DNA of 64,000 nt from a virus (IMGVR_UViG_3300002835_000063:1-64000); one strand, 5' to 3'. Positions 28,273-63,632 are shown, numbered from the stretch's first letter. A program made the numbers and translations. Notes: generated by a model not told the origin, from the sequence alone.

Positions 28273-28624
28273 TAGGTTCCTCTTCTAGTCGCAACCACTC
28301 GACAACCTCAGGATTGTCTTTAATAAACGATAGCATAGGTGCTTCCCAAATACCAATAAAGTGGTGTTCCCACACATCATAAGGATCTTTACCGTCGGGC
28401 GTCTTTTGGCCGCTGCCATAAACCATCCCAATGGCGTGAATGATTTCGTGGAGCAGCGTCTGTTGTTTTTTAGTGAATGCAATATTGGCGTCCAGTACTA
28501 TCAAGTTGCCCTGGTCTAGCGTGTAGCCATAAGAGTTGTCATTGAGGGTTCCGTCTTTTTTGACGTTGCGTTCCTCAATGTGAAAAACCTGGGCGCCTAT
28601 GCGGACTTTTTTGGGGACAGACAT
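28220..28624 (-). CDS. HExxH metallopeptidase-like protein
   Basis: 134 aa. H59-E60-x-x-H63 in QTLLHEIIHAIGMVYG is a zinc-protease motif; the preceding strand (LIVLDANIAFTKKQQ) matches the ImmA/IrrE or SprT-like layout of small phage metallopeptidases. Target unknown; ImmA-like proteins cleave repressors. A TAACAT hexamer 6 nt before the ATG suggests a leaderless start heading the glycosyltransferase operon. Confidence 0.65.
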   Translation of the reverse strand: MSVPKKVRIGAQVFHIEERNVKKDGTLNDNSYGYTLDQGNLIVLDANIAFTKKQQTLLHEIIHAIGMVYGSGQKTPDGKDPYDVWEHHFIGIWEAPMLSFIKDNPEVVEWLRLEEEPSGEKKQGVRASNTSAKR

Positions 28625-28642
28625 GGCTCTATGTTATCTGAT

Positions 28643-29551: not shown

Positions 29552-30224
29552 TTGTAGGTGCCTCGACAATAGTGGCGTCTACTATGTTTTTAACACTCGA
29601 AGCGTACCAGCTGCCCCCACGGGCGGAAGGAATTCCCTGTTGGTTTAAACTATCTGCAATTGATTGATATGAGTGACCAAGACTTCTTTTAATTTTTATT
29701 TGTTCCGCCACTGCCGGCGAAATTATTTGCTTAGGGCCAATGTCCTTACCCCAAACCACCCCTTGCTCCCGTCGGTCCTTGTGAATGTCCTTGGCTCGCT
29801 CGGCAATTATGCCTCGCTCCATCTCAGCCAGTGCCGACATAATCGTGACTACAAACCGACCCTGATATGTAGATGTATCAAGATTCAGGTCCAGCATGAT
29901 CAGACGCCAACCATTACGACCAGCTCGATCCACAATGTCCAGGAAGTCCTTGGTTGACCTAGCCAACCTATCAATCCTGGTTACAATCAGCGCTCCCGCT
30001 TTTTCTTCGTCTAACTGATGGAGGGCGTCTATTAACTTTGGTCGGCCCGAAACATTCTTGCCGGAGCGGCCCTCTTCCAGCATTACTTCCCACTCAGTAA
30101 AGCCATACATTTGCGCAGCTTGGATTAGTTGGCGTTCCTGCGCTCCTAGTGACACACCGTCATCAACCTGCATCTGCGTTGACACACGAGCGTATAAAAG
30201 TGCTTTACCAGTAGGGGCGTCCAT
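29541..30224 (-). CDS. Serine recombinase (resolvase/invertase family)
   Basis: 227 aa. The N-terminal catalytic domain has R13 and nucleophile S15 (YARVSTQMQ), LIVTRIDRLARSTKDF and a long helix E with LAEMERGIIAERAKD. A short C-terminal helix-turn-helix follows (SYQSIADSLNQQGIPSARGGSW). Size and layout fit a resolvase or DNA invertase rather than a large serine integrase. Possible roles are multimer resolution or fibre-gene inversion. Three near-copies of the dispersed GGCGTCTA motif lie in this gene: at the start, in the middle and at the end. Confidence 0.88.
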   Translation of the reverse strand: MDAPTGKALLYARVSTQMQVDDGVSLGAQERQLIQAAQMYGFTEWEVMLEEGRSGKNVSGRPKLIDALHQLDEEKAGALIVTRIDRLARSTKDFLDIVDRAGRNGWRLIMLDLNLDTSTYQGRFVVTIMSALAEMERGIIAERAKDIHKDRREQGVVWGKDIGPKQIISPAVAEQIKIKRSLGHSYQSIADSLNQQGIPSARGGSWYASSVKNIVDATIVEAPTNEA

Positions 30225-30808
30225 TAAAATCTATCCGAATCATCTTCCATAGGCGGCATGTAGAACTCATCAAATCTAGTTTTTAAGTGTATTTCTGAAT
30301 ACCAAAGTACAAGCTCTAATTTATTTCCAGAAATTACTTCAGATACTCCCACCTCATTAGATTCATCTACTCCATACATAAGCAAGTCGCCTGCCCCCAA
30401 TTTAATGGTGTCTCCGGTGTTAGTAAAAGTAGTAGTTCCACCTTCATAATCGTCATTTAGTCCAAGTATTGCAATTTTTCTGTCAATCTTATGGACCTGG
30501 GCATCCCTACTGGTGTCGCGTTCTACGGTTGGCATAATTTTAGAGCCGGTGACTAATTCTCTAAAAAAGAATTTAACCGACTCCAAAACTCCCCCCGATC
30601 TATTTTTATCAAAATAATTAAGGGAAACTCTAAAGATTTTTTCAATATAGCCCCCATCAGACCAACTGTCTGGCCTATTCCCCAGTGGGTAGGAGCCAAT
30701 TCCATCCACAAAAGACGCTAAAATTAAAGCCTTTTTAGCATATAGCTCTAAAGATTTAGCCTCTTCTTTAGACAAGAATTCTCGTACCAAAATGTATTTT
30801 TGGGTCAT
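30224..30808 (-). CDS. Degenerate 2OG-oxygenase-like protein without iron ligands
   Basis: 194 aa. The fold is recognisable (LGLNDDYEGGTTTF, IKLGAGDLLMYG, SEVISGNKLELVLWY), but the expected HxD reads as part of ERDTSRD and the distal His position reads NEVGVSEV, where active paralogues have an H (IHGVTEI). The 2OG-binding Lys is kept. It probably cannot hold iron and may be a regulatory or binding protein. Its stop overlaps the recombinase start (TAATG). Confidence 0.72.
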   Translation of the reverse strand: MTQKYILVREFLSKEEAKSLELYAKKALILASFVDGIGSYPLGNRPDSWSDGGYIEKIFRVSLNYFDKNRSGGVLESVKFFFRELVTGSKIMPTVERDTSRDAQVHKIDRKIAILGLNDDYEGGTTTFTNTGDTIKLGAGDLLMYGVDESNEVGVSEVISGNKLELVLWYSEIHLKTRFDEFYMPPMEDDSDRF

Positions 30809-37826: not shown

Positions 37827-38156
37827 TTACCTGATACTAGGCCCTCGGTGTTTTACTGGATATCTACGATAATTGCGCTTTCTAATGAGCTTTCGTTCAT
37901 GTTCTGTTGTTCCGCCCCAAACCCCAAGCTCGTTATTTTTTAGGGCATACTCCAAACACTCGCGAATTAGTGGACATTCTTGGCATACTTTTTTGGCCGA
38001 TTCTAGGTTTTGGTATTTGGCTGTAACCATTCCAAATCCCATGTCTATATCCATGGGAAAAAATATTTCGGGATCTGTTTGAGCACAAGCTGGATCGTCT
38101 TTTAAAACAAAAAGTGGGACGGTAATGCTTCTGGTAAGACGATTCTTTTGTGTCAT
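37827..38156 (-). CDS. whiB: WhiB-family transcription factor
   Basis: 109 aa. Four Cys ligands for a 4Fe-4S cluster (C24, C58, C61, C67) and the GVWGGTTEHER turn followed by a basic tail are the complete WhiB signature. The family is restricted to Actinobacteria and their phages and modulates sigma-factor-dependent transcription. It is the best single host marker in the window. Confidence 0.95.
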   Translation of the reverse strand: MTQKNRLTRSITVPLFVLKDDPACAQTDPEIFFPMDIDMGFGMVTAKYQNLESAKKVCQECPLIRECLEYALKNNELGVWGGTTEHERKLIRKRNYRRYPVKHRGPSIR

Positions 38157-48583: not shown

Positions 48584-49960
48584 ATGAGCAAGAGAGCTGG
48601 AAGAAAGTCTCAGGCTTCTAATGACTTTTTAGAGCCAAAAGCCCCGATTAACGTATCTGCTACGGACGTTGGAACTGCCCGTGCCTACAATGATGGCGCT
48701 GCTAGCGTTTCTTTCGAGTTACCAGGAGACTCGCCAGCCGCTACTTCTTATGAAGTTAAAGCATATAAAAATGGAACCACTCTCGACACTACCGCAACTG
48801 GAACAACGGGGGCAAGCTCTCCTATCACAGTTGGCGGGCTAGATTCTGCCACTGGATATACTTTTACAGTATCTGCAACTAACGCTGCTGGCACATCGGC
48901 AGATTCAGCCGCATCTGCTTCTGTAACCATTACAACCGTCCCACAGGCTCCGCAAAGCCCATCAGCCACTTCTACAACTGCTAATCAAGACATCATCTCT
49001 TGGTCAAACGGTGCTAATGGTGGGAAAGCCATAACTAGCACATATTTTGTGTCAAGTGACCAGACCACAAATCCAGGCAACGTAACCATGACCACCAACC
49101 CATGGACTGAGCCAGAAAACGGTGGTTCAACGCAGAACTATACTCTGTATCACGTAAACGATAATGGAACCTCAGCAGGCGCTTCTACCGCTAACGTAAC
49201 TACGATTGCACCATTCTTCCCACCATTCTTCCCACCGTTCTTCCCATTCTTCCCGCCTTTCTTCCCGTTCTTCCCACCGTTCTTCCCACCGTTCTTCCCA
49301 CCATTCTTCCCACCATTCTTCCCGTTCTTCCCACCTTTCTTCCCACCGTTCTTCCCGCCATTCTTCCCACCATTCTTCCCACCGTTCTTCCCACCGATGT
49401 TCCCATTCTTCCCACCGTTCTTCCCACCGTTCTTCCCACCGATGTTCCCATTCTTCCCACCGTTCTTCCCACCTAGATTCCTATGTATTGAAGAAAACAC
49501 AATGATCTTGACACCTAGAGGAGAGATCGCGGCTAAGGATCTTCGAGCAGGAGATACGGTATTGTCAATAGCAATTAATGAGATTGGCAATAACTCTGTT
49601 ACCCCAATTGAATTCACTGTTGGTGCAACTTTGACGAGCACATCGCAGCTAGTCGAGACAAAGATTGTTGGAATTCTAGAGACCGTAAAGACCGGAATAA
49701 CTTACTTCAACGGTAGGTCAGAGGCCAGATATTCTAGCCAGCAGCCACTGTTTGTTAAGTCTGATGGAGAATTCCAGGTAAAGATTGTTTCTAACATTAA
49801 GCTTGGAGATGCTCTCCTGCTGATTAATCCAGATGGAACATACACCGAAGAAGAGGTAACCGAAATTACTCTAGTTTCGGAGCCGGCCAATGTATTCCAA
49901 TTCTCCTGCGAGCCATATCACTGGTTTATAGCTGGTGGCTACTTGGCCCACAATAAGTAA
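48584..49960 (+). CDS. FN3 adhesin with Phe-Pro repeat and C-terminal Hint (intein-like) domain
   Basis: 458 aa. Two FN3 domains at about 21-115 and 120-208 lead to a low-complexity FFPP repeat (211-297), then a Hint domain (301-458). The Hint part begins with C301 (CIEENTMILTPRGEIAAKDLRAG) and ends with H456-N457-K458 (YLAHNK), as in inteins and bacterial intein-like domains that cleave at Asn. The usual block-B His is Gln here (SSQQPLFV), so processing may be slow or partial. The domain would release or modify the FFPP stalk. It ends at a terminator. Confidence 0.82.
   Translation: MSKRAGRKSQASNDFLEPKAPINVSATDVGTARAYNDGAASVSFELPGDSPAATSYEVKAYKNGTTLDTTATGTTGASSPITVGGLDSATGYTFTVSATNAAGTSADSAASASVTITTVPQAPQSPSATSTTANQDIISWSNGANGGKAITSTYFVSSDQTTNPGNVTMTTNPWTEPENGGSTQNYTLYHVNDNGTSAGASTANVTTIAPFFPPFFPPFFPFFPPFFPFFPPFFPPFFPPFFPPFFPFFPPFFPPFFPPFFPPFFPPFFPPMFPFFPPFFPPFFPPMFPFFPPFFPPRFLCIEENTMILTPRGEIAAKDLRAGDTVLSIAINEIGNNSVTPIEFTVGATLTSTSQLVETKIVGILETVKTGITYFNGRSEARYSSQQPLFVKSDGEFQVKIVSNIKLGDALLLINPDGTYTEEEVTEITLVSEPANVFQFSCEPYHWFIAGGYLAHNK
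49214..49474 (+). repeat. 12-bp tandem repeat encoding Phe-Phe-Pro-Pro
   Basis: The unit TTCTTCCCACCG recurs with small changes (FFPF, MFPF) for 87 codons, always in frame. The same unit reappears at 63159-63218 in another fibre gene. Confidence 0.9.
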
Positions 49961-49979: not shown

Positions 49980-50017
49980 CCCCCCTTATGATTAGTAAGG
50001 GGGGGTGTTTATTTTTT
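49980..50017 (+). terminator. Rho-independent terminator after the Hint gene
   Basis: CCCCCCTTA/TAAGGGGGG stem with a 7-nt loop, then TGTTTATTTTTT. It separates the first fibre block from the oxygenase cluster. Confidence 0.88.
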
Positions 50018-50066: not shown

Positions 50067-50801
50067 ATGAATACTTGGTTCACAAAAGACAGATCAGAGA
50101 CTGACTCTAATCGAATGCCCCCAAGACCACTGGGCCAAAAAATACAAGTATTAAACCCTGCCTTAGGGATAAATGTATATCGTGGCGCAATAACAAAAGA
50201 AGAGGGCAGGGCTTGCGTAGACATTTTAGAGTCAACCTTAAATGGCCAAACTCAATACAAATGGAGTGATGCTCAAGTTACAAATTCTTCAAAGGCTAAC
50301 CTAGAAGCAAGAAATGCCAAAGATTTTAAATTTAATTCGACTGGCCTAGGGCCAAAAAATGAAGAAAATGAAAAATTATATGAAATGCACGAAAAAATTT
50401 TTAGGGCAGTAAAAGCATGTGTAGATGATTATGGTTATTACTGGGGCGTTGGGATAATGTCATATGAGGCTTTTAACTTTGTTAAGTATGAAGGAGCCGG
50501 GACCCACTTTAAAATTCACGCAGATCATGGCCCAACATATGTAACTACGGTGTCTATTGTCGTGTATCTCAACGATGATTATGAGGGGGGAGAACTTTGG
50601 TTTCCCCGATTTGATTTAACCCTAAAACCACAAGCTGGAGATATAGCAGTTTTTCCGTCAACATACATCTACGAACACGCTTCGCAGGACATGATTAGTG
50701 GGACTAAGTATTCTGTTGTCATTATGAGCGACTATAATGACAGAGATAATGTAAACCAAAGAGTGCCTCAAACCATTCAAAATTATCAACTTAAGTACTA
50801 G
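50067..50801 (+). CDS. 2OG-Fe(II) oxygenase, cluster gene 1
   Basis: 244 aa. Ligands H151xD153 (FKIHADHGPT) and H204 (IYEHASQDM), 2OG-binding K214, and YLNDDYEGGELWF at 167-179. RBS AGAAAGAA; a TATAAT box lies about 35 nt upstream. First gene of a cluster that runs without real gaps to 57889. It is most like cluster gene 2, which also has an H..H/D..G tail. Confidence 0.9.
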   Translation: MNTWFTKDRSETDSNRMPPRPLGQKIQVLNPALGINVYRGAITKEEGRACVDILESTLNGQTQYKWSDAQVTNSSKANLEARNAKDFKFNSTGLGPKNEENEKLYEMHEKIFRAVKACVDDYGYYWGVGIMSYEAFNFVKYEGAGTHFKIHADHGPTYVTTVSIVVYLNDDYEGGELWFPRFDLTLKPQAGDIAVFPSTYIYEHASQDMISGTKYSVVIMSDYNDRDNVNQRVPQTIQNYQLKY

Positions 50802-50812
50802 AAAGAGCCAAA

Positions 50813-51583
50813 GTGTCAGAACAGATCAACAAAACCGAAGAAGAAGTACGCCTAGAGGCAGAACAAAAAAGTAAAGAAGAGCAAAAAAATATACACGAGC
50901 GGCTAGTAAATTGGTACAAAATTGACGAGGTGACTTGGAGTTCAGCAGAAGAAATTGTTCCTGGCAGCGGCATTTGGGTATACCATGATGTTTTGCCCGC
51001 CGAGATGAATATAATTTCTCGGTTAGAAGAAGTTTTAGATAATCCAGAAAATAACTATCAGTACCAAGAAGCAATGGTCGGATATGCAATGAAAATCCCG
51101 GAGTACCGAGACTGCGTAGATTTTAAATACAAAGAGAATGACTTTGACAATGATCAGTCAGAGTGGGGTGACAAGCTTCGACAGTTGGCAAAAGATACAA
51201 AGTATAGACAGCTACAGGTAGTAAAAGATTACACAAGAAGATATAACATCGGCGAACTTCGTTACTGGGAAGCAACCAACTATGTTCGCTATGGAGTTGG
51301 CCAACACTTCCAGGAACATCACGATCACGGGTACTCCTACAACTGTGTAGTTTCTTTGGTTGCGTACCCAAATGACGACTACGAAGGCGGTGAGCTTTAT
51401 TTCAGATTACAAAACATAACTGCTAAAGCCCGCGCTGGCGATGTTTTTATTTTTCCCTCTAATTTTATGTACCCACACAGGGCAATGCCAGTTAAGTCTG
51501 GAGTTAAATACTCTATGGTTACTATGCTTGATTACTCAGAAAAACTACACAATCCAGAATTTTTTAAGGAGCTAGAGAACTAG
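50813..51583 (+). CDS. 2OG-Fe(II) oxygenase, cluster gene 2
   Basis: 256 aa, GTG start. Ligands H169xD171 (FQEHHDHGYS) and H222 (YPHRAMPV), 2OG-binding K232; NDDYEGGELYF at 187-197. An acidic/Lys-rich helix of about 30 residues precedes the fold. Its stop overlaps the GTG of the next gene. Confidence 0.9.
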   Translation: MSEQINKTEEEVRLEAEQKSKEEQKNIHERLVNWYKIDEVTWSSAEEIVPGSGIWVYHDVLPAEMNIISRLEEVLDNPENNYQYQEAMVGYAMKIPEYRDCVDFKYKENDFDNDQSEWGDKLRQLAKDTKYRQLQVVKDYTRRYNIGELRYWEATNYVRYGVGQHFQEHHDHGYSYNCVVSLVAYPNDDYEGGELYFRLQNITAKARAGDVFIFPSNFMYPHRAMPVKSGVKYSMVTMLDYSEKLHNPEFFKELEN

Positions 51584-52329
51584 TGTCAATAGTTTCGATA
51601 CAAAAGCTTTTTAAAGAGGGAGACGTTGCAAATATTGAGCAACTTCCAGCCCGTAGAGACTGGATGGATCAAACTCAGGACAAACATGCCTACATGTGTT
51701 TTCCCTTAAATCTAACAAACAGGCTTGGTTGGTCAATATCTTTTCCGGAGGATATTTCTTTTATTTGGGACGGAGTAACAGATACTTCTCCAGATCATGT
51801 AAAAATTTTAAAAGGAGAAAAATTTGTTCACCCAACTAGGGGAAATGCAACAATTAGTTTTTTAACTGGTTTAAAGTTCACAACAGACCAAAATACTTCT
51901 ATATTGGCAATGCCAGTACCCAACTTGTTTATCAGGGGGGCGCAGTGCTACACAACTCTGATGAGCACCTCTTTTTATATACACATGCTTCCACTGGCCT
52001 GGAGAATTACTGAACCAAACATAGAAATAGAAATACCAGCCGGAACCCCCGTAGCTTCAATTTTGCCAATCTCTTTAACAAATCTAGAGAACGACTACGA
52101 ACTTCAAATTACCGAGGACCTGCCAGACGGATCCTACTGGGAAGAAGTTAGAAAGTATGGCGATGCAACCATAATTAAAAATGGCGCGGGCGACTGGTCA
52201 AAAATGTATAGAGATGCCCTAGACTATAACGGAAATTCTGTTGGCTCTCATGAAACTAAATCAATAAAATTAAAAACTGTAGTATGCCCGGCTACAGGAA
52301 AAAACTATGAAATAGAGGAAACTATTTAA
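51583..52329 (+). CDS. Unrecognised beta-rich protein, pair member A
   Basis: 248 aa, GTG start overlapping the oxygenase stop. Landmarks: AYMCFPLNLTNRLGWSISFPED near 36-57, SFYIHMLPLAWRITEPNIE and IPAGTPVASILPISL. The downstream gene has the same order (AWWADWAVELPEG..., LPAGTPYAQILPF), so they are paralogues. I recall a DUF6065 family with a similar layout but cannot confirm it. No 2OG motif is present. Its place inside the oxygenase cluster suggests a shared task. Confidence 0.6.
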   Translation: MSIVSIQKLFKEGDVANIEQLPARRDWMDQTQDKHAYMCFPLNLTNRLGWSISFPEDISFIWDGVTDTSPDHVKILKGEKFVHPTRGNATISFLTGLKFTTDQNTSILAMPVPNLFIRGAQCYTTLMSTSFYIHMLPLAWRITEPNIEIEIPAGTPVASILPISLTNLENDYELQITEDLPDGSYWEEVRKYGDATIIKNGAGDWSKMYRDALDYNGNSVGSHETKSIKLKTVVCPATGKNYEIEETI

Positions 52330-53069
52330 TGGAAACTAAAAAAATTAAGTTTGTAGTAAATAGACCTTGGTTAAGTAAAGAAAGTAGTTCTCTGCCAAAA
52401 CCAACAATAAAAACTATTCCAGATTGGTACAGAGAGGGGGATCGATATGCAAAACATCCAGTAACTGGAGAGTACTGGAAAGATCCGCAGAATGGCGGAA
52501 AAATTCCAACTTGGAAAGCTTGCCCATCGGTATATGACATCATGGGCTCTGGCTATGTTTACAGGACTCCCTGCGACATTGAATTTAAAGAAAATATTTA
52601 CGGACAAATAGAAGCCAAAGTTTTAGACGAAAAAAATAAAGACTTTTTGCAACTTAGAACGCCCATGCCAGGATTTAAAGCTCCAATGGGATACCACGAT
52701 GTTCATTTTGCGTGGTGGGCTGATTGGGCGGTCGAATTGCCCGAGGGGTATAGTGCACTTTACTCCCAGCCGTTTAATAGATTTGAACTGCCGTTTATTA
52801 CAACTAGTGGAATTATTGATAACGACAAAGTCCATTTGCCGGGGACAATGCCATTTTTTGTTGTAAAAGGATTCCAAGGAGTTCTACCAGCAGGAACTCC
52901 GTATGCTCAGATCTTGCCATTTTTAAGAGAGCACTGGGAATCTGAAATTGTAGATTCCATAGGTTACGAAAAAATGGTACAAAAAAATATGGACAACAGC
53001 CAAAAATACAGGGTCCCAGACGGCGGGGTTTACCAAAAAGATGTCTGGGAACGAAGAAAATACGAATAA
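52329..53069 (+). CDS. Unrecognised beta-rich protein, pair member B
   Basis: 246 aa, ATG within the previous stop (TAATG). Starts IKFVVNRPWLSKESSSLPKP, then IPDWYREGDRY and WKACPSVYDIM, resembling phage proteins that follow oxygenases; VLPAGTPYAQILPFLREHWE near the end matches member A. No catalytic motif is recognised. Confidence 0.6.
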   Translation: METKKIKFVVNRPWLSKESSSLPKPTIKTIPDWYREGDRYAKHPVTGEYWKDPQNGGKIPTWKACPSVYDIMGSGYVYRTPCDIEFKENIYGQIEAKVLDEKNKDFLQLRTPMPGFKAPMGYHDVHFAWWADWAVELPEGYSALYSQPFNRFELPFITTSGIIDNDKVHLPGTMPFFVVKGFQGVLPAGTPYAQILPFLREHWESEIVDSIGYEKMVQKNMDNSQKYRVPDGGVYQKDVWERRKYE

Positions 53070-53083
53070 GATAAACTAGACCC

Positions 53084-53767
53084 ATGAGAAACGACTACAC
53101 AAATAACAACATTACTCCATATATGTCAATAACCCCTTCAGGATTTTTTGGCGATTCTGCAGAAAATATTGTTGCTATTGACGACTTTATGACCGAAGAA
53201 GAATTAACCTATCTAAACAATTTTGCTAGGAAAAATACCATGTGGGACGCAACCGAGACTCACTATAACGAAGATGGTACAGTGATTTATGACTCTTCTT
53301 ACTGGGATCATCGAGTTGCAACGGCTCCCATATTAAAAGAAGCTGATATAAAAGTAGTTGAACTAATATCTGATATGCAAGATAGATTAAAGAAAAAAGT
53401 TGATACTTTTTTCGCAGTGGATGCTCATCCCACAAGCCCGGCGCTAGTTAGGTGGCTACCCGGACAAAGACAGCAACCGCACGCAGATAAAGAACTACAT
53501 GAGGGCGAGGGCAGGGGGAAGCCAAATGACTTCCCATACTATGACATAGCTGGCCTTTTTTATATAAACGATGACTATGAGGGAGGAGAGCTATATTTCC
53601 CTAACCAAGGTATTCAATTTAAACCAAAAGCCGGATCAGCTTACTTTTTTCCAGGAGACATGAATTATATCCACGGAGTCACAGAAATCAAGTCTGGAAT
53701 TAGATATGTTTGCCCATTTTTCTGGACAATAAAAGAGCACACTGGCAACCACAAACCAAATTTATAG
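53084..53767 (+). CDS. 2OG-Fe(II) oxygenase, cluster gene 3
   Basis: 227 aa. Ligands H133xD135 (QQPHADKELHE) and H197 (NYIHGVTEI), R207 for 2OG; NDDYEGGELYFPNQ at 162-175. The charged loop after HxD (HEGEGRGKPNDF) resembles that of prolyl-4-hydroxylases. It starts 14 nt after pair member B. Confidence 0.9.
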   Translation: MRNDYTNNNITPYMSITPSGFFGDSAENIVAIDDFMTEEELTYLNNFARKNTMWDATETHYNEDGTVIYDSSYWDHRVATAPILKEADIKVVELISDMQDRLKKKVDTFFAVDAHPTSPALVRWLPGQRQQPHADKELHEGEGRGKPNDFPYYDIAGLFYINDDYEGGELYFPNQGIQFKPKAGSAYFFPGDMNYIHGVTEIKSGIRYVCPFFWTIKEHTGNHKPNL

Positions 53768-53798
53768 TAGAATTATCATCAACAAGCAAGGATCTAAA

Positions 53799-54578
53799 AT
53801 GCATTTAGCCCAGAAACTACACGAAGAAGTTTATCTATACGAGGATGTAATTAGTGATCCCAAAAAACTTATTGATTTAATTGAAGAATTAGATGAAGAC
53901 GAAACTGTCCAAAGCGTAATTCCAGAATGGGGCTTTTGGTTTTCAAACAGCCGTGACGGTCACAGTTTCGGCAGTAAAAAAGATTTTAATCCAGAAGCCT
54001 TAGATCAACTAGACTCATCTAGAAAAGAAGATGTTGAGTTTATAGTAAAAGAAATTCAGAGTGGTGTAAAAAATGTTGCAGAATCCTACTACAAAGATAG
54101 AGGACTAGAGGGTCAACCACAAATATCTCCGTTTGTTGGAATTATGAAGTACCGCCCAGGCTGCGAAATGGGCGCACACTTTGACGCTCAGGCCGGAGAT
54201 AGAAGTTTAAAGTATTCGATTGTGATGTATTTAAATGACGACTATGAGGGCGGAGAGATCTCCTTTATTATTAGACCATATGATTTAAGAAACCCAAAAA
54301 ATTTCCACCTTCAACCATCAACCGATGCTGACGACCCCAAAAATAAAGATCTCACAGACTTTACGCTAAAACCAAAAGCTGGATCAGCATTAATTTTTCC
54401 CTCTACTCATCCGTATAAGCACCAAGTTCACATAATTAAGGGTGGAGATAAGTATATTTTCCCTGGTTTTGTTTTTCAAGATGATTTTGATCCAAATGAT
54501 CCAGCTTCTAGAGAAAAATACAATGCCGGATCTCTATACGAAAAGCCAACCGAAGACGTTTATTTCGACGAAGACTAA
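53799..54578 (+). CDS. 2OG-Fe(II) oxygenase, cluster gene 4
   Basis: 259 aa. Ligands H127xD129 (MGAHFDAQAG) and H208 (PYKHQVHII), K218; YLNDDYEGGEISF at 144-156. A 35-residue insert between the EGGE strand and the KPKAGS strand (YDLRNPKNFHLQPSTDADDP) distinguishes it. AAGGAT precedes the ATG. Confidence 0.9.
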   Translation: MHLAQKLHEEVYLYEDVISDPKKLIDLIEELDEDETVQSVIPEWGFWFSNSRDGHSFGSKKDFNPEALDQLDSSRKEDVEFIVKEIQSGVKNVAESYYKDRGLEGQPQISPFVGIMKYRPGCEMGAHFDAQAGDRSLKYSIVMYLNDDYEGGEISFIIRPYDLRNPKNFHLQPSTDADDPKNKDLTDFTLKPKAGSALIFPSTHPYKHQVHIIKGGDKYIFPGFVFQDDFDPNDPASREKYNAGSLYEKPTEDVYFDED

Positions 54579-54582
54579 TAAA

Positions 54583-55197
54583 ATGTATGAGGCCATTTCG
54601 CCAAAAGTTCTATACTTTAAAAATTTTTATAAAGACACAGAAAAGTTTTTAGAGGCTATAGAAAGCTCCCCACCCTGGGAACCATGGAATTCTCGGGGTG
54701 GCCAAAATATTTTTACTTACGGAGTATTAAAAACATTTCATACCCAAGAATACAAACAAATAGCAGATATTAATCAAAAAAATTCTAGTAAATTTATTAT
54801 TAATGCCATGAAAAAAATAAATTTAGTCTGCGGATCAGAGTATTTAAAACATTTTCAATGCTCGGACAATGAATTAAGTAGATTAAAAAAGTCCATTTTA
54901 ACGGATAAAATAATTATTGGCGTAAAAAAATATTTTGAGGGGGGGACCACCCTAGGCCCACACCCAGACGCGGACCTACAATCATCAAAAGATGAAATAA
55001 GCATAACTTTTTATCCAAACGATAATTATGAGGGCGGAGAATTAAATTTTCCCGATTTGGGGCTAACAATTAAACCAGAGGCCGGAAGTGTGGTCATATA
55101 CCCATCAAAATATTTACATGAATCTTTCCCCGTTCCCACGGGAGAAAAGTTGGTGTCTAATCACGTATACATTGGACTGGAAAAAATATGGAAATAA
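54583..55197 (+). CDS. 2OG-Fe(II) oxygenase, cluster gene 5
   Basis: 204 aa from the ATG at 54583, 4 nt after the previous stop; a longer frame from 54442 would overlap the upstream gene and is rejected. Ligands H127xD129 (LGPHPDADLQ) and H179 (KYLHESFPV), K189; PNDNYEGGELNF at 145-156. AT-rich with many Lys codons. Confidence 0.85.
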   Translation: MYEAISPKVLYFKNFYKDTEKFLEAIESSPPWEPWNSRGGQNIFTYGVLKTFHTQEYKQIADINQKNSSKFIINAMKKINLVCGSEYLKHFQCSDNELSRLKKSILTDKIIIGVKKYFEGGTTLGPHPDADLQSSKDEISITFYPNDNYEGGELNFPDLGLTIKPEAGSVVIYPSKYLHESFPVPTGEKLVSNHVYIGLEKIWK

Positions 55198-55844
55198 AAT
55201 ATGAAATACCTTACGAGAATATTGTTTATTTTCCAGAAATTGTTCCGGACGTAGATAACATAATTTCTTCAATAGAGTCCACAAATAGTCTAGCTATAAC
55301 TAAATGGGAAATTTGGAATGCTTATGGAGAATCAGACGGGGATCCATATGGCGAAGTAAAATACATGAGCAAACATCTTTTAGATGCAGAGACTAACCAA
55401 AAAACTGTAGAAACCTCAAAATATATAATTTCTACGCTAATAAGTTCAATGTCATTAGCAGCCGAAACTTACGCAAAAATATATAACATTGATTCTAACC
55501 TTTTGCAGTATGCAATTGATGCATTAAATATGCCTGGCACAAAATATGGAATAAACAAATATTTTGAGAATCAATACATGGGACCACACGTTGACTGGAA
55601 TGAGTACAACTCCGACATTACTTATACCATTGTTGTTTACTTGAACGATGATTACGAAGGCGGGGAGCTATTTTTTGTGGATCCGGACATAAACATAAAA
55701 ATAAAACCTAAAAAGGGAAGCATAGTAATGTTTCCATCTGTCCTGCCATATCTGCATCAATCCTGTGAGATTACTAAGGGAAGAAAAATGCTGATAACTC
55801 ATCACTGGAAAAATGATTCACTATCAAGAAACAGGACTTACTAA
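55188..55844 (+). CDS. 2OG-Fe(II) oxygenase, cluster gene 6
   Basis: 218 aa, overlapping the previous gene by 10 nt. Ligands H134xD136 (MGPHVDWNEY) and H190 (PYLHQSCEI), R199/K200; YLNDDYEGGELFFVDPD at 151-167. Confidence 0.88.
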   Translation: MEIKYEIPYENIVYFPEIVPDVDNIISSIESTNSLAITKWEIWNAYGESDGDPYGEVKYMSKHLLDAETNQKTVETSKYIISTLISSMSLAAETYAKIYNIDSNLLQYAIDALNMPGTKYGINKYFENQYMGPHVDWNEYNSDITYTIVVYLNDDYEGGELFFVDPDINIKIKPKKGSIVMFPSVLPYLHQSCEITKGRKMLITHHWKNDSLSRNRTY

Positions 55845-56698
55845 TGTCAATTAATGTAAATCTTATTGAAGTTTTTTCTAAAGAAGATCTCTATTCTAGA
55901 CTAAACGAAATTTTAGATGTTCAAACTAAAAATTCCATTGTTGGGATTAGAGGAGTTAGGCTTACTGAAGAAGAGCAGCTACAGCTAGCCAGAGATCTCG
56001 GAGACATAGCTGGCTGGTTCCCAAACAACACCGACAAATTTAATCACAAATATATTGAAAATCACTCTGCCAACCCATCGGTGGGAGCCTCTTCAAATAA
56101 CGAATTAATTTTAAGCTGGCACCTAGAGCGCGTCGATTATGACGAATATCTTTTGTTGGTGGCTGGCGTTTGGAACATGAGACTTTTTAATTGTGATCCA
56201 GAATCGGGTAAAACATATTTTATAGATTCCAGAAAAGTGTTCCAAAAAATTTACAATGAAGATGAAAAGAATTTTTTGCGAGGCTGCAAAGCCTACTGGA
56301 CAGAACAAACGCCAAGCGGCAATACACGCACTAATTATGTAAAGATTGTTCAGCCCCATTGGAAGACCGAAGAAGAACAAATTAGAGTTGAGCTACACCA
56401 TATGGCTGCAATTAAATTGTACAAAATAAACGATAATGACCCAACTTCAGAAGAAGCGGCCGCCTTTGAGTCATTAATGAAAAGATTTTCTCAAGAAATA
56501 GCAAACAACGAAGATTTAAGAATAATTCACAAATGGAAAGAGGGAGACATCCTCATTCCAGATCTTTTCTCTCTAGCGCACGCCGTCACGGGCGGATTTG
56601 ACCCCAAAGACAGAGAGTTTACCGGATACTGGTGCTATACGGCGTCTCCCTCTAGTGTTGGAGAAGACAATGTCCCGCCATCTTGGAGGGGTGAATAA
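55844..56698 (+). CDS. TauD/TfdA-like 2OG dioxygenase
   Basis: 284 aa, ATG overlapping the previous stop. Iron ligands H93-L-E95 (LSWHLERVDY) and H246 (DLFSLAHAVTGG), with R257 (DPKDREFTGYW) for 2OG. The order fits the taurine-dioxygenase family, which acts on small molecules, unlike the prolyl-hydroxylase-like genes around it. Glu instead of Asp in HxD/E is tolerated in this family. Confidence 0.75.
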   Translation: MSINVNLIEVFSKEDLYSRLNEILDVQTKNSIVGIRGVRLTEEEQLQLARDLGDIAGWFPNNTDKFNHKYIENHSANPSVGASSNNELILSWHLERVDYDEYLLLVAGVWNMRLFNCDPESGKTYFIDSRKVFQKIYNEDEKNFLRGCKAYWTEQTPSGNTRTNYVKIVQPHWKTEEEQIRVELHHMAAIKLYKINDNDPTSEEAAAFESLMKRFSQEIANNEDLRIIHKWKEGDILIPDLFSLAHAVTGGFDPKDREFTGYWCYTASPSSVGEDNVPPSWRGE

Positions 56699-56700
56699 GC

Positions 56701-57171
56701 TTGAACGATTTAAATCCAACAAATGAAGTATATGTAAATCAATACAAAGAAGCTGTAAAACAAAATAAAGCAAATTCTTATATGCTCACTATTGCCAGAG
56801 ACGGCGAATCACCAGTCAGGTCAATTTATTTTTATGATAATGCAGTAGACGCCACTATTGGATATGAAGCATACCAAGACTGGGGATTTGCTAAAGACTA
56901 TCTAACGGTGGAGCTATATGAGCCAACTGGAAGGGTTCACAGCAAAGTTTTGCGCAGGCCTCGCGGTGGAGAGTGCACTTTTGAGCGGGCACAGTACTAC
57001 CAAATTTCTGACATAATAAACGCCGTTAAGCCAAAAGTAGACGAGGAAGCATTCAACTACCTAGCCTACGAGTTTGCTAAGCTATTCTCGAAGGACAACC
57101 AAAGGTTTAATCCAGAGCGATTTTTAGAGACGCTGGGATATACAGGAGAAATAAATGACAGATCTGTCTAA
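56701..57171 (+). CDS. Hypothetical protein, 156 aa
   Basis: TTG start with GGAGGGG upstream. Helical and mixed, with YMLTIARDGESPVRSIYFYDN and KVLRRPRGGEC. Unrecognised. It sits between the TauD-like and last oxygenase genes and overlaps the latter by 17 nt. A reverse-oriented dispersed motif codes for NAVDATIG (56846-56859). Confidence 0.55.
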   Translation: MNDLNPTNEVYVNQYKEAVKQNKANSYMLTIARDGESPVRSIYFYDNAVDATIGYEAYQDWGFAKDYLTVELYEPTGRVHSKVLRRPRGGECTFERAQYYQISDIINAVKPKVDEEAFNYLAYEFAKLFSKDNQRFNPERFLETLGYTGEINDRSV

Positions 57172-57889
57172 GATCGAGACTACCCCGACAGAGTTTGGCG
57201 ATAAGGGATTTATCAAAGAAGATATTGTTTTTTACAATAATTTTCTAACCCAAGAAGAGTGTGAGACCCTGGTTAGAGTATTCGAGGACGAAGAGCAACC
57301 CTGGAGCATGTCAGCTTTTTTTGAGTCGTACGGCATGAGTATTATGCCAGAAGACCCGATTTTAGAGCGATACGGGTTACCTAGAGATTACTTTGGGAAA
57401 CTAGCAGATAGGCTACATAAGGTAGTAGAAGATGCCCACGAGCGTCCAGTAAAATCAGTTTCGTCTCATGCCCAGAAGTGGCAAATAGGGGCGTTTGCTC
57501 CATTTCATTCAGACAACACCGACATGGATGGAAACCCGTCTGCCTGGGAGAAAAGCAAACTTGTCTGCCTCTTGTACATAAATGACGACTATGAGGGCGG
57601 AGAGCTAGACTTTAGGGATCACGATATCTCGATCAAACCGGTGGCGGGCCAGTTAATTACTTTCCCCGGCGGATTTAATAACATCCACCAAGTGTTGCCA
57701 GTGAGGGGCTCTACGAGACATACCATTGGAGCTTTCTGGGATTATGCCGAATCGGTCTACTCCGAAGAGCGCATGAAGCAATGGGAAGATGAAATCCAAA
57801 AGGTCCGAGAAGAGCAAAAAGTCATGCAGGACGAGTGGAAAGAAATGGTTGCCAAGGGGGTCCACCCCACGGATCCGGGCGCTCAATAG
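57155..57889 (+). CDS. 2OG-Fe(II) oxygenase, cluster gene 7
   Basis: 244 aa. Ligands H118xD120 (FAPFHSDNTD) and H178 (NNIHQVLPV), R188; YINDDYEGGELDFRD at 141-155. A C-terminal coiled extension (EERMKQWEDEIQKVREEQ, residues 203-235) is unique among the set and may mediate multimerisation. Last gene before the collagen-like fibres. Confidence 0.9.
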   Translation: MTDLSKIETTPTEFGDKGFIKEDIVFYNNFLTQEECETLVRVFEDEEQPWSMSAFFESYGMSIMPEDPILERYGLPRDYFGKLADRLHKVVEDAHERPVKSVSSHAQKWQIGAFAPFHSDNTDMDGNPSAWEKSKLVCLLYINDDYEGGELDFRDHDISIKPVAGQLITFPGGFNNIHQVLPVRGSTRHTIGAFWDYAESVYSEERMKQWEDEIQKVREEQKVMQDEWKEMVAKGVHPTDPGAQ

Positions 57890-57909
57890 TCAATTTAGCC
57901 AAACTGCGG

Positions 57910-57915
57910 TAAAAT
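57910..57915 (+). promoter_or_regulatory. Candidate promoter of the second fibre block (TAAAAT)
   Basis: GCGGTAAAATTG 39 nt before the ATG at 57954. It resembles ACGGTAAAATAA before 42855, the paralogous first fibre-block gene. Confidence 0.4.
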
Positions 57916-57953
57916 TGTAAGGACTAGTCTAATCCCCTGTTAGGACTTTCCGC

Positions 57954-58331
57954 ATGAGTCATTTGCGTGGCAATATCCATGATCTAATCACAGATCAGGG
58001 ATCTACTGTACACCAGGTATTTACTATCAAAAACTCGGCTCGTCGGATAATCCCCCTAACCGGGTATTCGGCTCGTATGCAAGTCAGACGTTGGGACGTG
58101 GAAACCAGGGATCCCGTCCTAACAACTATCGCTGAATATACAACTGCAAACGGATATCTAACCGTCAACGGTGCCGCGGGAACCGTGACTCTTCTTATTC
58201 CGCCCGCCGATATGGCAGCATACGAGCCAGGTTCTTATGTTTACGACATCGAGGTCGAGACAGCAAATGCTGGAGATACCACTCGGATCATCCAGGGAAA
58301 ATTTATTGTGAGAGCTGAGGTAACCAAGTAG
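57954..58331 (+). CDS. Tail/baseplate module protein, paralogue of 42855
   Basis: 125 aa. Same beta fold and landmarks as 42855-43217 ([31 protein letters not shown]). Its TAG stop overlaps the GTG of the large collagen-like gene, as with its paralogue, so the pair module-plus-collagen fibre occurs twice. Confidence 0.65.
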
Positions 58332-60742
58332 TGGTACTCTCTGACAATTTTGCATATGTAGACGTTAAAGGTCCTGGACCTCAAGGACCTGCAGGACCAA
58401 CAGGACCTGCAGGACCAGCAGGTGGACCAACTGGACCCACAGGTGTCACGGGACCGACAGGTGCAACGGGACCATCTGTTACAGGTCCAACAGGTCCTAC
58501 TGGACCTACTGGAAACTTAGGTCCTACGGGCCCAACAGGTCCTCAGGGTATTGCAGGTTTGTCAGTCACCGGTGCAACTGGTGCAACTGGAGCAACTGGT
58601 GCAGCCGGTGCTACAGGACCAACTGGAGCACAGGGTATTGCAGGTTTATCAATTACTGGACCAACTGGTGCTGCAGGCGTTGCAGGTCCAACAGGACCAA
58701 CCGGTGCAACTGGTGCAGCAGGTTCTGATGGACTAAGCATTACTGGACCAACTGGACCAACTGGTGCTGCAGGCGTTGCAGGTCCAACAGGACCTACTGG
58801 GTCGCAAGGTATTGCTGGTTTATCAATTACTGGACCTACCGGTGCGCAAGGAAACGTGGGCCCAACTGGTGCAACAGGACCTACTGGGTCGCAAGGTATT
58901 GCTGGTTTATCAATTACTGGACCTACCGGTGCTCTTGGTCCCACTGGTCCCACTGGCCCTACGGGCCCAACTGGCGCAGACAGCATGGTTACAGGTCCGA
59001 CTGGTCCTACAGGACCCACAGGTCCTACCGGAGCAACTGGAGCAACTGGTGCAGACAGCATGGTTACAGGTCCGACTGGTCCTACAGGACCCACAGGTCC
59101 TACCGGAGCAACTGGAGCAACTGGTGCAGACAGCATGGTTACAGGTCCGACTGGTCCAACCGGTGCAACTGGACCTCAAGGAATATCACTAGAGCTAATT
59201 GGATCAGTAGAGAATATAATTGATCTACCGCCCAGTGCAAATATTAACGAAGCATATATTGTCCAAGCCGATGGAAATCTTTATGTGTGGGACGGCGCTC
59301 AATGGGTAGATGTTGGCCAAATTGTTGGACCCATTGGACCGACTGGCCCAACTGGCCCAACGGGAGCAACTGGACCTCAGGGCAATCAGGGCATCCAAGG
59401 TGTTCAAGGCGACACCGGACCCATTGGACCGACAGGCGCAACTGGCCCAGAAGGAAATTATTATGTTGGAGATAATCCTCCACTAACTCCTACAGAGGGC
59501 GATGGTTGGTTCAACACTTCTACAACAAAATTCTTTATTTACTACGACAATTTTTGGATTGAAGTTGCCACCACCGAGCGAGGCCCAACTGGAGCGACTG
59601 GAGATACAGGGCCAGCTGGACCAACAGGTTCCACCGGAGCGACTGGAGATACGGGACCTCAAGGTATTCAGGGTGTAACTGGACCTACCGGAGCGACTGG
59701 AGATACGGGACCTCAAGGTATTCAGGGTGTAACTGGACCTACCGGAGCGACTGGAGATACGGGAGCTACGGGCCCTACCGGAGCGACTGGAGATACGGGA
59801 GCTACGGGCCCTACCGGAGCTGATGCACTGTGGAATTTCACTGGACCATATCAAATAGGGTCTTCTTATGCAGTGGGCGATGTTGCTACCTATGGTGGAC
59901 AGACTTGGTATCGCATAGACGCAAATGGTGGAAACACCGGAGACACCCCATCAGAGGGAACATTCTGGACATTGATAGCGCAAGCAGGAGCTATCGGCGA
60001 CACAGGCCCTACTGGAGCGACTGGAGACACTGGACCTCAAGGTATTCAGGGTGTAACTGGACCTACCGGAGCGACTGGAGACACTGGACCCCAAGGGCCA
60101 ACTGGACCAACGGGTGACACAGGCCCGACGGGCCCGACGGGATTGGGTATTCCACTGGGTGGCGACACCGGTCAAATTTTGGCAAAAGACTCTCCAGCCG
60201 ATGGCGACTATGTTTGGGTTGACAACTATGCTGATTGGACTGCTGTTGTTAAGCACGAAGTTAGAGCAGAGCAAGTATTAACAAAAGGTCAAGCTGTCTA
60301 TGTTAGCTCTTCTGATGGCACCAACATGCGAGTCTCTAAATCGTCTAATGCTACAGAATCAGCATCAAGCAAAACCCTGGGAATTATTGCTCAGAATTTG
60401 GCAGTAAACGGTCAAGGCTTCGTAATAACAGAGGGCCTTCTAGCTGGTCTAAACACATCGACCGCTACAACTGGAGATCCAATTTGGCTTGGAACTGATG
60501 GAAACTTAATTTTTGGCTTAGCAAACAAGCCATCAGCTCCAGCTCATTTAGTTTATTTAGGTGTCGTAACTAGAGTAAATCTTAACAATGGTGAGATATT
60601 TGTTAAGGTTCAAAATGGATTTGAACTGCAAGAACTTCACAATGTAAAAATTAACGGCATCCAAGGCGGCGATATTTTGTCTTACAATGCAATTAGCCAG
60701 CTTTGGGAAAATATTCATGTTGTTGACGGAGGTACGCCATAA
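58331..60742 (+). CDS. Large collagen-like tail fibre with CBM-like module
   Basis: 803 aa, GTG start. Two blocks of Gly-X-Y triplets, mostly Gly-Pro-Thr and Gly-Ala-Thr, fill about residues 14-285 and 333-500. They are interrupted by a beta-hairpin module ([20 protein letters not shown]) and a [20 protein letters not shown] module. At about 500-550, [20 protein letters not shown] with a Trp end resembles a family 5/12 carbohydrate-binding module. The last 200 residues form a globular C-terminal tip. Bacterial collagens of this type are trimeric and often glycosylated on Thr. Confidence 0.85.
58976..59200 (+). repeat. 75-bp tandem repeat in collagen-like gene
   Basis: Near-identical units begin at 58976, 59051 and 59126 (each starts GCAGACAGCATGGTTACAGG or a close variant). 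Further tandem units of 54 bp start at 59641 and 59695. The high identity suggests recent copy-number change. Confidence 0.85.
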
Positions 60743-61542
60743 TGGCTATTGATTTTCCAAATAGTCCGTCTATAGGACAACAAGTTTCTGCAAATGGCAC
60801 CATCTGGGAGTGGGATGGAATTGCTTGGGTTGTAATTGGGACACCTGTTTCCATTGGCCCAACTGGACCAATCGGGCCAACTGGACCGCAAGGCAGCCAA
60901 GGAATTACTGGTCCAACAGGAAGCACTGGTCCAACAGGCGCTGACAGCACAGTACCGGGACCAACCGGACCAACTGGACCCCAAGGAGATACGGGTCCAA
61001 CAGGCATTCAAGGAAACGTGGGTCCTACCGGACCACAGGGAATTCAAGGCCCAACCGGAGCAGTTGGTTCCCAGGGTGTGCAGGGTGCAACAGGTCCAAC
61101 TGGACATCAAGGTGATACAGGACCAACTGGCGCAACAGGAGACACTGGACCTCAAGGAAACATCGGAGACACAGGGCCTGCAGGACCGACTGGAGCAACT
61201 GGAGACACAGGGCCTGCAGGACCGACTGGAGCAACTGGTGCAACTGGTGCAACTGGACCTACAGGAGCAGATGGAACATTCTTAGTTTCAAGCTCAGTGC
61301 CGCCAACCCCCACCGAGGGTCAAATTTGGTTTAATTCAGTTGAAGGTAAATTATTAATTTTCTATGACGGTTTTTGGGTAGAAACAATTGTCGGTGAGGT
61401 TGGAGCGACAGGACCAACCGGTCCAGCGGGGAGCTCTACTTTGTATACTCCAACAACACCATTAGATTGGGTCACCACCCCAAATACTATCTCTGAAGCA
61501 TTAGATCAACTTGCTAGTAGAATAAAAGCACTAGAACCGTAG
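60742..61542 (+). CDS. Collagen-like tail fibre
   Basis: 266 aa, ATG within the previous stop. An N-terminal short-fibre module ([22 protein letters not shown]) is followed by about 140 residues of GPTGPQG/GATGDTG triplets, a [23 protein letters not shown] hairpin module and a C-terminal helix ([17 protein letters not shown]) that could nucleate trimerisation. Confidence 0.82.
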
Positions 61543-61553
61543 GATAAACATAA

Positions 61554-62735
61554 ATGGCTATTTTAAATTTTCCCGACAATCCGTTGGTAGGGGATACTTT
61601 TGAAGCATCCTCTCAGGGGGGTATTTTTGCTAATAGTACTTCAACTTGGACTTGGACTGGAACCTACTGGGAGGCAGAATCTACCGAACTAATCGTCGGT
61701 CCCACGGGCCCTACAGGGGCTACCGGAGCAACTGGGCCCCAGGGTACAAGTATTAACTTTAAAGGTTCTGTAAATACTTTTAACGATTTACCACTAAGTA
61801 ATAACATTGTAAACGATGCCTACATAAATCACGAAGACGGGGATCTCTATGTTTGGGATGGAAGCGTTTGGGACAGTGTCGGTCAAATCGTTGGCCCCCA
61901 GGGAGCCACTGGACCCACTGGAGCGACTGGTCCTCAGGGCATACAAGGAGCTACAGGTGATCAGGGACAGCAGGGACCCACTGGACCAACCGGGCCCCAA
62001 GGAACTCCAGGACTAGTTGGACCGACTGGTGCAACTGGTGCGCCTGGATTAGATGGTCTTTCCGGTCAATCAGGTTTAGATGGTGCTACTGGACCCACTG
62101 GTCCCACCGGAGCCACTGGTCCTCAAGGAGATGTTGGACCCACCGGCCCCCAGGGATTGCAGGGACAGACCGGATATACCGGTCCCACCGGAGCCACTGG
62201 CGACACCGGTCCCATCGGCCCAACTGGTGCTGCAGGTACAAACGGATTAAATGGAGATACGGGCCCCACCGGTGCAACAGGGGCAACCGGCCCAACCGGC
62301 CCACAAGGTACAAACATTAATTTTATTGCAACAGTAGCCACAGTAGCAAACTTGCCAGGTTCAGCAAATCAGAATGATGCATATATCGTTGAAGCTGATG
62401 GTGATTTGTATGTTTGGGACTCCCTAAATACCGAGTGGGATAACGTTGGACAAATTGTTGGTCCTCAGGGTCCTACTGGTGCCACAGGGCCGACTGGAGC
62501 TACGGGCAACACGGGAAGCTATACAGTATCAGCCCCTCTTTCATTAGTCGGTAGCAACATCAGCATTCAGAGTAATCCAACGTTTACCGGAAATGTTTCA
62601 GCTACTTCATTCACCGGAAACTTAATTGGAACAGCTGACAATTCATTAAAAATTGAAGGCAGAAAAATTTATGTTCAGAGTTCTGCACCAACTTCCGGCA
62701 TGTCAAATGGCGACATTTGGATTGACATTCCGTAA
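61554..62735 (+). CDS. Collagen-like tail fibre with two hairpin modules
   Basis: 393 aa. An N-terminal [12 protein letters not shown] module, then three Gly-X-Y blocks separated by two copies of a 40-residue module ending DLYVWD...VGQIVGP. The C-terminal tip includes [17 protein letters not shown] and [13 protein letters not shown]. The same module occurs in the 803-aa fibre, so segments have been shuffled among the three genes. Confidence 0.82.
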
Positions 62736-62753
62736 AAATACCGAGGACTAATA

Positions 62754-63632
62754 ATGGCATCATATGCGGGAGACGGGGCCTTTAGCCTAAGAAATACTGT
62801 ACGGTTGTATGTACAGATAGAAACAACTTTGGTGGCTGGGGGAACTGAACTTTATATTACAGCCTACGCTCAAAGAGACCCCGGTGAAACTAGAACTCCA
62901 AATAGTTCTATTGCAACTAAATCCTACAGCGTGCCAGGAGGAAGAAGCGGCGGAGCGACAGGATCTCTTTTAGAGTCTGGATCAGCCAACTGGACTTATA
63001 ACTGGGCAACGGGAGATCCACAAATTGTTTGGAGCGGATTTTTTAGGTATATACAATTTGGACCAGGATCTGTTACCGTAAATATAGGTGCCCAGGGGGG
63101 AGGAGTAATTGGCACTGCTTCAGTTAACGTAAATGTACCCTTATTTTCTGCACCGCCATTCTTCCCACCGTTCTTCCCACCTTTCTTCCCGCCATTCTTC
63201 CCACCGTTCTTCCCACCGTCGCCGTACTGGGTAACAAATACTTTAACTTCTAGTACAGCTATAGAGGGTCAGGCATACTCCAGCACCTTCTCGGCCGTTC
63301 ACGTAAATAGTTATGCGCTATTTAGTGGAAGTTTGCCATCAGGAATTTCAATCAACTCGAGCACCGGAGTTTTATCTGGAACACCGGCCCAAGGATCAGC
63401 TGGAACTTATAATTTTGTAATTAGTGCGTCTGGGGACGGCGGAACTATTTACACTGGAACACTTACTTTAACTGTGGCCGATGATGGCGGAAAAGTAAGA
63501 GTTTATAATTCAAGCACAGGACAGTGGGAGGAAGCAACGGTTTATGTATATAACTCGGCTACTTCTCAGTGGGTTCAGTCAGATTTGTATGTTTACAATA
63601 GCAGCACTGGAACTTGGGTAAAAAGCGTTTAG
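62754..63632 (+). CDS. Fibre/adhesin with FFPP repeat and Ig-like domain
   Basis: 292 aa. A beta domain of about 130 residues is followed by a short FFPP repeat (136-155, the same unit as in the Hint protein), a putative Ig domain (about 160-242: SGSLPSGISINSSTGVLSGTP is the He_PIG signature), and three C-terminal repeats of VYNSSTGQW. No Hint domain here. Probably the tip protein of the second fibre block. Confidence 0.75.
   Translation: MASYAGDGAFSLRNTVRLYVQIETTLVAGGTELYITAYAQRDPGETRTPNSSIATKSYSVPGGRSGGATGSLLESGSANWTYNWATGDPQIVWSGFFRYIQFGPGSVTVNIGAQGGGVIGTASVNVNVPLFSAPPFFPPFFPPFFPPFFPPFFPPSPYWVTNTLTSSTAIEGQAYSSTFSAVHVNSYALFSGSLPSGISINSSTGVLSGTPAQGSAGTYNFVISASGDGGTIYTGTLTLTVADDGGKVRVYNSSTGQWEEATVYVYNSATSQWVQSDLYVYNSSTGTWVKSV
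63159..63218 (+). repeat. FFPP-encoding repeat, second copy
   Basis: Five units of TTCTTCCCACCG-type sequence in frame, matching 49214-49474. Confidence 0.88.

Follow-up and report, generated by a model that had tools for sequence, protein, structure and literature searches.

Introduction

What would a phage do with a dense set of prolyl-4-hydroxylase (P4H)-like genes beside its fibre genes? This question is raised by a 108,880-base viral record (IMGVR_UViG_3300002835_000063), of which bases 1-64000 are referred to here as the window; seven P4H-like genes and a TauD-like gene, all encoding putative 2-oxoglutarate (2OG)-Fe(II) oxygenases, form one packed unit with short gaps or overlaps at 50067-57889. 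A first-pass annotation of the window had proposed that the phage hydroxylates its own fibres, namely the collagen-like fibres encoded behind the unit or a protein with Phe-Phe-Pro-Pro (FFPP) repeats encoded in front of it. By comparing this region with related loci in viral contigs, we find that a protein with FFPP repeats or their FFxPPG variant (collectively, FF-PP repeats) is the constant partner of the enzymes. These comparisons suggest that three core enzymes (A, B, and C) probably hydroxylate the Pro-Pro of the FF-PP repeats, and that the additional enzymes may act on collagen or on segments of other kinds.

Results

Gene content of the enzyme unit

The FFPP-repeat protein and the unit behind it are arranged as follows.

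48584-49960, plus strand: FFPP-repeat protein, the proposed substrate, with an Fn3 domain (Pfam fn3, 1.7e-7), an FFPP array, and a Hint-like C-terminus
49980-50004, plus strand: terminator-like hairpin with a 10-bp stem and a T-rich tail, between the FFPP gene and enzyme A
50067-50801, plus strand: core enzyme A, P4H-like 2OG oxygenase (PF13640; H151, D153, H204, K214)
50813-51583, plus strand: core enzyme B, P4H-like 2OG oxygenase (PF13640; H169, D171, H222, K232)
51583-52329, plus strand: DUF6065 protein with a predicted dUTPase-like (beta-clip) fold (PF19541, 3.4e-25)
52329-53069, plus strand: phrog_7084 protein, a divergent DUF6065 relative (phrog_7084, E 1.6e-30)
53084-53767, plus strand: core enzyme C, P4H-like 2OG oxygenase (PF13640; H133, D135, H197, R207)
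53799-54578, plus strand: accessory P4H-like enzyme D (PF13640)
54583-55197, plus strand: accessory P4H-like enzyme E (PF13640), first listed from GTG 54442
55188-55844, plus strand: accessory P4H-like enzyme F (PF13640, 2.8e-14)
55844-56698, plus strand: TauD-like 2OG oxygenase (PF02668, 1.5e-16; H93, E95, H246, R257)
56701-57171, plus strand: small open reading frame (ORF) of 156 residues accompanying the accessory set, with relatives in several related loci
57155-57889, plus strand: accessory P4H-like enzyme G (PF13640)

The seven P4H-like genes and the TauD-like gene had been described as one packed unit in the first-pass annotation, and this description is correct, but its gene list was incomplete; the genes for DUF6065 (51583) and phrog_7084 (52329) and the small ORF (56701), for which a Pfam search gave no match, had been overlooked. 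A terminator had also been placed between the FFPP-Hint gene and the unit. Indeed, no terminator match in the region is better than the hairpin at 49980, but shuffled sequences give equally many matches of this type. For enzyme E, the fifth P4H, ATG 54583 is a more probable start than GTG 54442, and its relative in locus L012 likewise begins directly after enzyme D.

An FF-PP repeat protein is the constant partner of the enzymes

When viral contigs were scanned for relatives of enzyme B, 328 were found and 80 loci were kept. The loci listed have a recurrent order, namely the FFPP protein, A, B, DUF6065, 7084, and C, followed by a varying number of P4H genes; this and all other counts from pattern scans refer to loci among the matches listed, and the samples may include related phages. 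Several of the enzyme-B loci run directly into apparent structural genes with a flank devoid of collagen. A scan of viral contigs for DNA encoding FFPPFFPPFFPP gave at least 120 stretches, and most of the FFPP ORFs in that scan have P4H genes downstream; gene orders and FFPP N-termini vary, but the content stays.

An FF-PP repeat protein was found in all of the 43 DUF6065-anchored loci with at least 5 kb of upstream DNA (30 FFPP and 13 FFxPPG). The latter 13 had appeared to be modules without a repeat protein but proved to have FFxPPG repeats, with arrays such as FFAPPGFFAPPG in the same protein type and at the same place. Anchoring on enzyme B, we found the repeat protein in 34 of the 35 loci with enough upstream DNA, and the FPP array of the remaining one (L066) is short and degenerate. 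The enzymes without collagen-like or FFPP proteins, a combination that the first-pass annotation had named as contradicting its view, were thus looked for with both anchors and, L066 apart, did not emerge in these loci.

The association was also evident when the loci were anchored on the repeats. Here, the FFxPPG scan was a prediction made after the variant had been seen, and scans for PTPT repeats (proline-rich) and for GPT-collagen served as controls. Of the FFPP loci, 53/64 had a P4H gene no more than 4 kb downstream, as did 65/70 of the FFxPPG loci, compared with 9/53 for GPT-collagen and 5/57 for PTPT; after removal of redundancy, the numbers were 48/58, 40/43, and, for collagen, 8/51. 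Fisher p values for the repeat-anchored contrasts ranged from 3.6e-13 to 1.6e-23, and P4H was upstream of the repeats in 1/44 and 0/57 cases. Furthermore, in a FastTree tree of DUF6065 with 149 tips, the repeat type switches at least six times. Because many uncultured phages carry a fixed enzyme set beside it, the repeat protein, and not mainly the collagen fibres, is the probable target.

In the window, the FFPP protein follows Mtd_N-type and other fibre-region genes. Its array spans about residues 211-297, where the Pro codons vary synonymously (CCA, CCG, and CCT), as would be expected if selection acts on the protein repeat. The Hint-like part opens with CIEENT and closes with HNK, but its scores are below the curated Pfam cut-offs (PT-HINT, 18.4 vs 27.7 bits; Hint_2, 18.1 vs 28.4); with a profile built in this analysis, a Hint-like domain was detected in 60 of the 207 complete repeat proteins.

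As to distribution, the 50,697 records of isolated phages, cyanophages included, contained no module and no DUF6065 match, and the FFPP protein gave a single Hint-like match there (phage NCTB). In cellular genomes, FFPP was found in metagenome-assembled contigs only; one of them, L344, carries the module, and L335 carries relatives of P4H, DUF6065, and TauD. A TauD scan of viral contigs returned no relative, but TauD relatives do occur beside enzyme B. Also, no P4H follows within 4 kb in four loci (L434, L482, L508, and L514), whose FFxPP-array proteins have a Cys-rich C-terminus.

Catalytic residues and fold of the oxygenases

The catalytic residues of A, B, C, F, and G are retained in the related loci. 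In group alignments, the H/D/H set was found in 39/39 (A), 56/56 (B), 69/69 (C), 34/34 (F), and 57/57 (G) representatives, together with K in 38/39 for A and R in 68/69 for C and 56/57 for G; the second His was not resolved in the alignment of the enzyme D group. The TauD-like enzyme scores as PF02668, and its H, E, H, and R are invariant in 11/11 representatives. In the window, the fourth active-site residue is Lys in A, B, D, E, and F and Arg in C and G, and Lys is also the usual residue among the representatives of B and F; in the Bacillus anthracis P4H, this residue is Lys.

Sequence profiles of A and B had the anthrax P4H as the top match in the PDB, followed by LH3 and by P3H1 or PiuC. 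The AlphaFold2 (AF2) model of enzyme A (predicted local distance difference test score (pLDDT), 84.7) has a P4H-type fold; all 50 listed matches in the PDB are prolyl hydroxylases, including PHD2, anthrax P4H, algal P4H, Pseudomonas P4H, and PBCV-1 vCPH. The idea that fibre proteins of the phage are modified by its own enzymes is therefore supported, because these enzymes are similar to hydroxylases of prolyl or lysyl residues in proteins, have retained their catalytic residues, and are encoded strictly downstream of genes of the fibre region; what is unsupported in the original proposal is collagen as the main substrate, as described below.

DUF6065 and phrog_7084, and the possibility of host targets

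The AF2 model of DUF6065 (pLDDT 89) has a dUTPase fold, with Foldseek matches to dUTPases at target-normalised template modelling (TM) scores of about 0.5-0.76, and DUF6065 is homologous to phrog_7084 (hhalign, 3e-7). Distant relatives of phrog_7084 were noticed in haloarchaeal viruses including Halorubrum phage HF2 (L212:6001-6657), in which the gene is near that of ribonucleotide reductase with no annotated fibre adjacent. Also, the predicted fold of A0A1D8KKM2 from Synechococcus phage S-CAM3 resembles that of DUF6065.

A dUTPase-fold protein within the module might be taken to mean that the targets of the enzymes are EF-Tu or other host proteins, or else nucleic acids or small molecules, and that their proximity to fibre genes is a chance of gene order. 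Indeed, the enzyme A model also matches the complex of Pseudomonas P4H with EF-Tu, the anthrax P4H has been reported to modify EF-Tu, one cyanophage 2OG oxygenase sits among replication genes, and cyanophage 2OG oxygenases have been proposed to function in DNA repair (PMC9146016). We nonetheless regard host targets as unlikely; the enzymes are strictly downstream of FF-PP proteins even across rearranged gene orders, and no dUTPase in the PDB was matched by the DUF6065 sequence profile.

Is collagen the substrate?

Behind the unit, the following genes are encoded.

57954-58331, plus strand: small fibre-region protein before the collagen genes, with relatives in related loci
58331-60742, 60742-61542, and 61554-62735, plus strand: three collagen-like proteins (PF01391), optional neighbours
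62754-63632, plus strand: second FFPP protein, with a He_PIG domain, after the collagen genes

The FFPP-Hint gene (48584) before the unit and the three collagen-like genes after it are thus as first described, and it is this position that invites the view that the cluster chiefly hydroxylates the collagen-like fibres, at X-position Pro or at Lys/Thr, with the FFPP neighbour being incidental. The nearest PDB profile matches, furthermore, include the collagen-modifying LH3 and P3H1. Against this view, the frequency of P4H near GPT-collagen does not differ from that near the PTPT controls (9/53 vs 5/57, p 0.26), and there is hence no regular genomic association with collagen genes; given these control scans, we reject collagen as the main partner in general among the loci listed. 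The search for co-occurrence in related phages, which the first-pass annotation had suggested, therefore singles out the FFPP-type protein, its alternative substrate, as the constant partner, but leaves collagen at the control level. Its caution on the position of Pro was also justified: among the 252 triplets of the window collagens, Pro occupies the X position in 114 and the Y position in at most 4, so that the canonical X-Pro-Gly sites of a collagen P4H are nearly absent.

Collagen also appears to be an optional neighbour of the module. PF01391 was searched in 21 records, which may be fragments: the one that contains the window and 20 further large ones bearing a module or a repeat. It was unmatched in 8 of these 20 (G004-G008, G011, G018, and G020). 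In seven of the eight, the repeat protein has a module gene next to it, as listed below; G011 (L097), of 81 kb, was excluded from the count, since the stretch read stops 2 bases after the end of the FFPP ORF and showed no core enzyme.

L061 and L088: A, B, DUF6065, 7084, and C
L093: A, B, DUF6065, 7084, and C in a different order
L119 and L113: C, B, and DUF6065
L137: B
L110: two 7084/DUF6065-type genes and a weak A relative

Loci with collagen downstream do have more P4H genes (mean 8.05 per locus vs 5.5 in those without), and the accessory set (D, E, F, TauD, the small ORF, and G) was found in 11/20 loci with collagen downstream and in 0/16 without, but both comparisons are confounded by relatedness and depend on thresholds set on the window proteins. 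Similarly, relatives of the small fibre-region protein at 57954-58331 were present in 20/20 loci with collagen downstream and in 0/16 without. Taken together, a system directed chiefly at collagen appears improbable.

The same numbers bear on a two-tier system, in which core A-B-C would act on FF-PP repeats, and D-G and the TauD-like enzyme on collagen or other fibre segments. It overlaps with the explanation that we favour, of which it is a stronger form, and it would account for a core that is invariant with FF-PP proteins and an accessory set found only in loci with collagen downstream. The accessory pattern is, however, confounded by phylogeny, and the candidate substrates of the accessory enzymes are read from gene context; we thus consider a strict division of this kind possible but somewhat doubtful.

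Other genes of the record

Across the window, twelve P4H-like ORFs were read, eleven of which retain the HxD...H...K/R set and match PF13640, the ORF at 31435 among them, in agreement with the first-pass count. All but the one at 30224 thus have the PF13640 score, the HxD...H motif, and the basic residue of 2OG-Fe(II) oxygenases. This exception (30224-30808, minus strand) lacks HxD as well as a Pfam match, adjoins the intact P4H-like genes at 30864 and 31435, and is possibly an inactive paralogue. No P4H-like ORF was found in the remaining 45 kb of the record. Besides the TauD-like enzyme (PF02668), a JmjC_2/cupin-like gene at 32003 was also present as annotated. Pairwise identity among the P4H-like paralogues in the window is mostly 20-30%, indicating old paralogues and ruling out recent tandem duplication.

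Near the second P4H group, outside the packed unit, ORFs at 25738-29569 (minus strand) were labelled as glycosyltransferase-like, kinase-like, and resolvase-like from reading the sequences only. Two WhiB genes (37830-38156, minus strand, and L009:9138-9608, minus strand) suggest an actinobacterial host.

Discussion

Gene content, catalytic residues, the fold of enzyme A, and the gene association are direct results of this study, and the explanation that we favour is a probable module for the post-translational modification of a tail-fibre-region protein with Phe/Pro repeats. The substrate would consist of an N-terminal Fn3-like part and a long FFPP (in relatives, FFxPPG) array, in many cases with a Hint-like domain behind it. 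With Fe(II) and 2OG bound, A, B, and C would hydroxylate the Pro-Pro prolines of the repeats, probably at differing positions or stages, which would give the very hydrophobic array greater polarity and stiffness, either ahead of virion assembly or in the course of it. The FFxPPG unit contains Pro-Pro-Gly, the classical P4H motif. DUF6065 and phrog_7084 may be binding or assembly partners of A, B, and C. The P4H-like genes behind enzyme C and the TauD-like gene may have been added in particular lineages to serve other segments, among which could be the collagen-like fibres.

Several points weigh against this explanation. A gene neighbourhood is no proof of a substrate, and it is from such data that we infer the substrate, the hydroxylation itself, the role of the dUTPase-fold proteins, and the place in the virion. 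The P4H profile used for the neighbourhood counts was built from window proteins, and even so, no P4H was found within 4 kb in 11/64 FFPP and 5/70 FFxPPG loci listed; in L102 and L110, for example, the FFPP protein is followed by two 7084/DUF6065-type genes with no P4H in that range. Also, three core enzymes and two proteins of the dUTPase-fold type exceed what proline hydroxylation of one repeat explains. Finally, PBCV-1 has an active viral P4H, but no hydroxyproline was detected in its purified particles (unpublished analysis cited in PMC7019647).

Phages commonly carry P4H-like accessory genes, which are poorly explained, and the set described here now has a specific and testable candidate substrate; since the module is linked to fibres, it is possibly linked to host recognition. 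In the literature searched, the FFPP repeat was not described in phages and nothing relevant on DUF6065 was found; the FFPP/FFxPPG repeat merits annotation, as do the related families DUF6065 and phrog_7084, the former with a dUTPase-like fold. A study of phage-borne E. coli collagens stated that the prolyl hydroxylases required for collagen are missing from bacteria and viruses (PMC3368898). In a Baltic Sea survey, P4H-like genes were common in viruses and their use was called "cryptic" (PMC9301287), and many phage proteins, mostly annotated as 2OG-Fe(II) oxygenases, structurally resemble human EGLN3 (PMC12774648).

Among the known systems, the cyanophage 2OG-Fe(II) oxygenases (phrog_61) belong to the same broad family and can be numerous within one genome, S-SZBM1 having nine (PMC9146016), and some lie beside structural genes (S-H9-1); they differ, however, in their low identity and in being scattered or among replication genes. 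The dUTPase family shares its fold with the DUF6065 model, but DUF6065 is larger and has no sequence match to dUTPases in the PDB. The B. anthracis P4H (3itq and 5hv0) is the best sequence-profile match of A and B but is a bacterial enzyme outside any phage fibre-linked cluster. PBCV-1 vCPH (PDB 5c5t), which is among the fold matches of enzyme A, is a virus-encoded P4H fold and, according to work by Eriksson in 1999, reportedly acts on proline-rich peptides; it is the enzyme of a eukaryotic algal virus, whereas we describe a multi-enzyme set of tailed phages tied to an FF-PP repeat protein. Also among the fold matches of A, the Chlamydomonas P4H with (Ser-Pro)5 (3gze) exemplifies the hydroxylation of prolines in a repeat structural protein, but the plant and algal wall enzymes belong to a eukaryotic secretory system and act on other repeats, and we thus use them as an analogy only. 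We tentatively propose that widespread, as-yet-undescribed uncultured phages mature a Phe/Pro-repeat fibre protein through several position-specific prolyl hydroxylases and dedicated dUTPase-fold partners, which, if true, would be a viral counterpart of the maturation of collagen or extensin on a repeat type unfamiliar from those systems.

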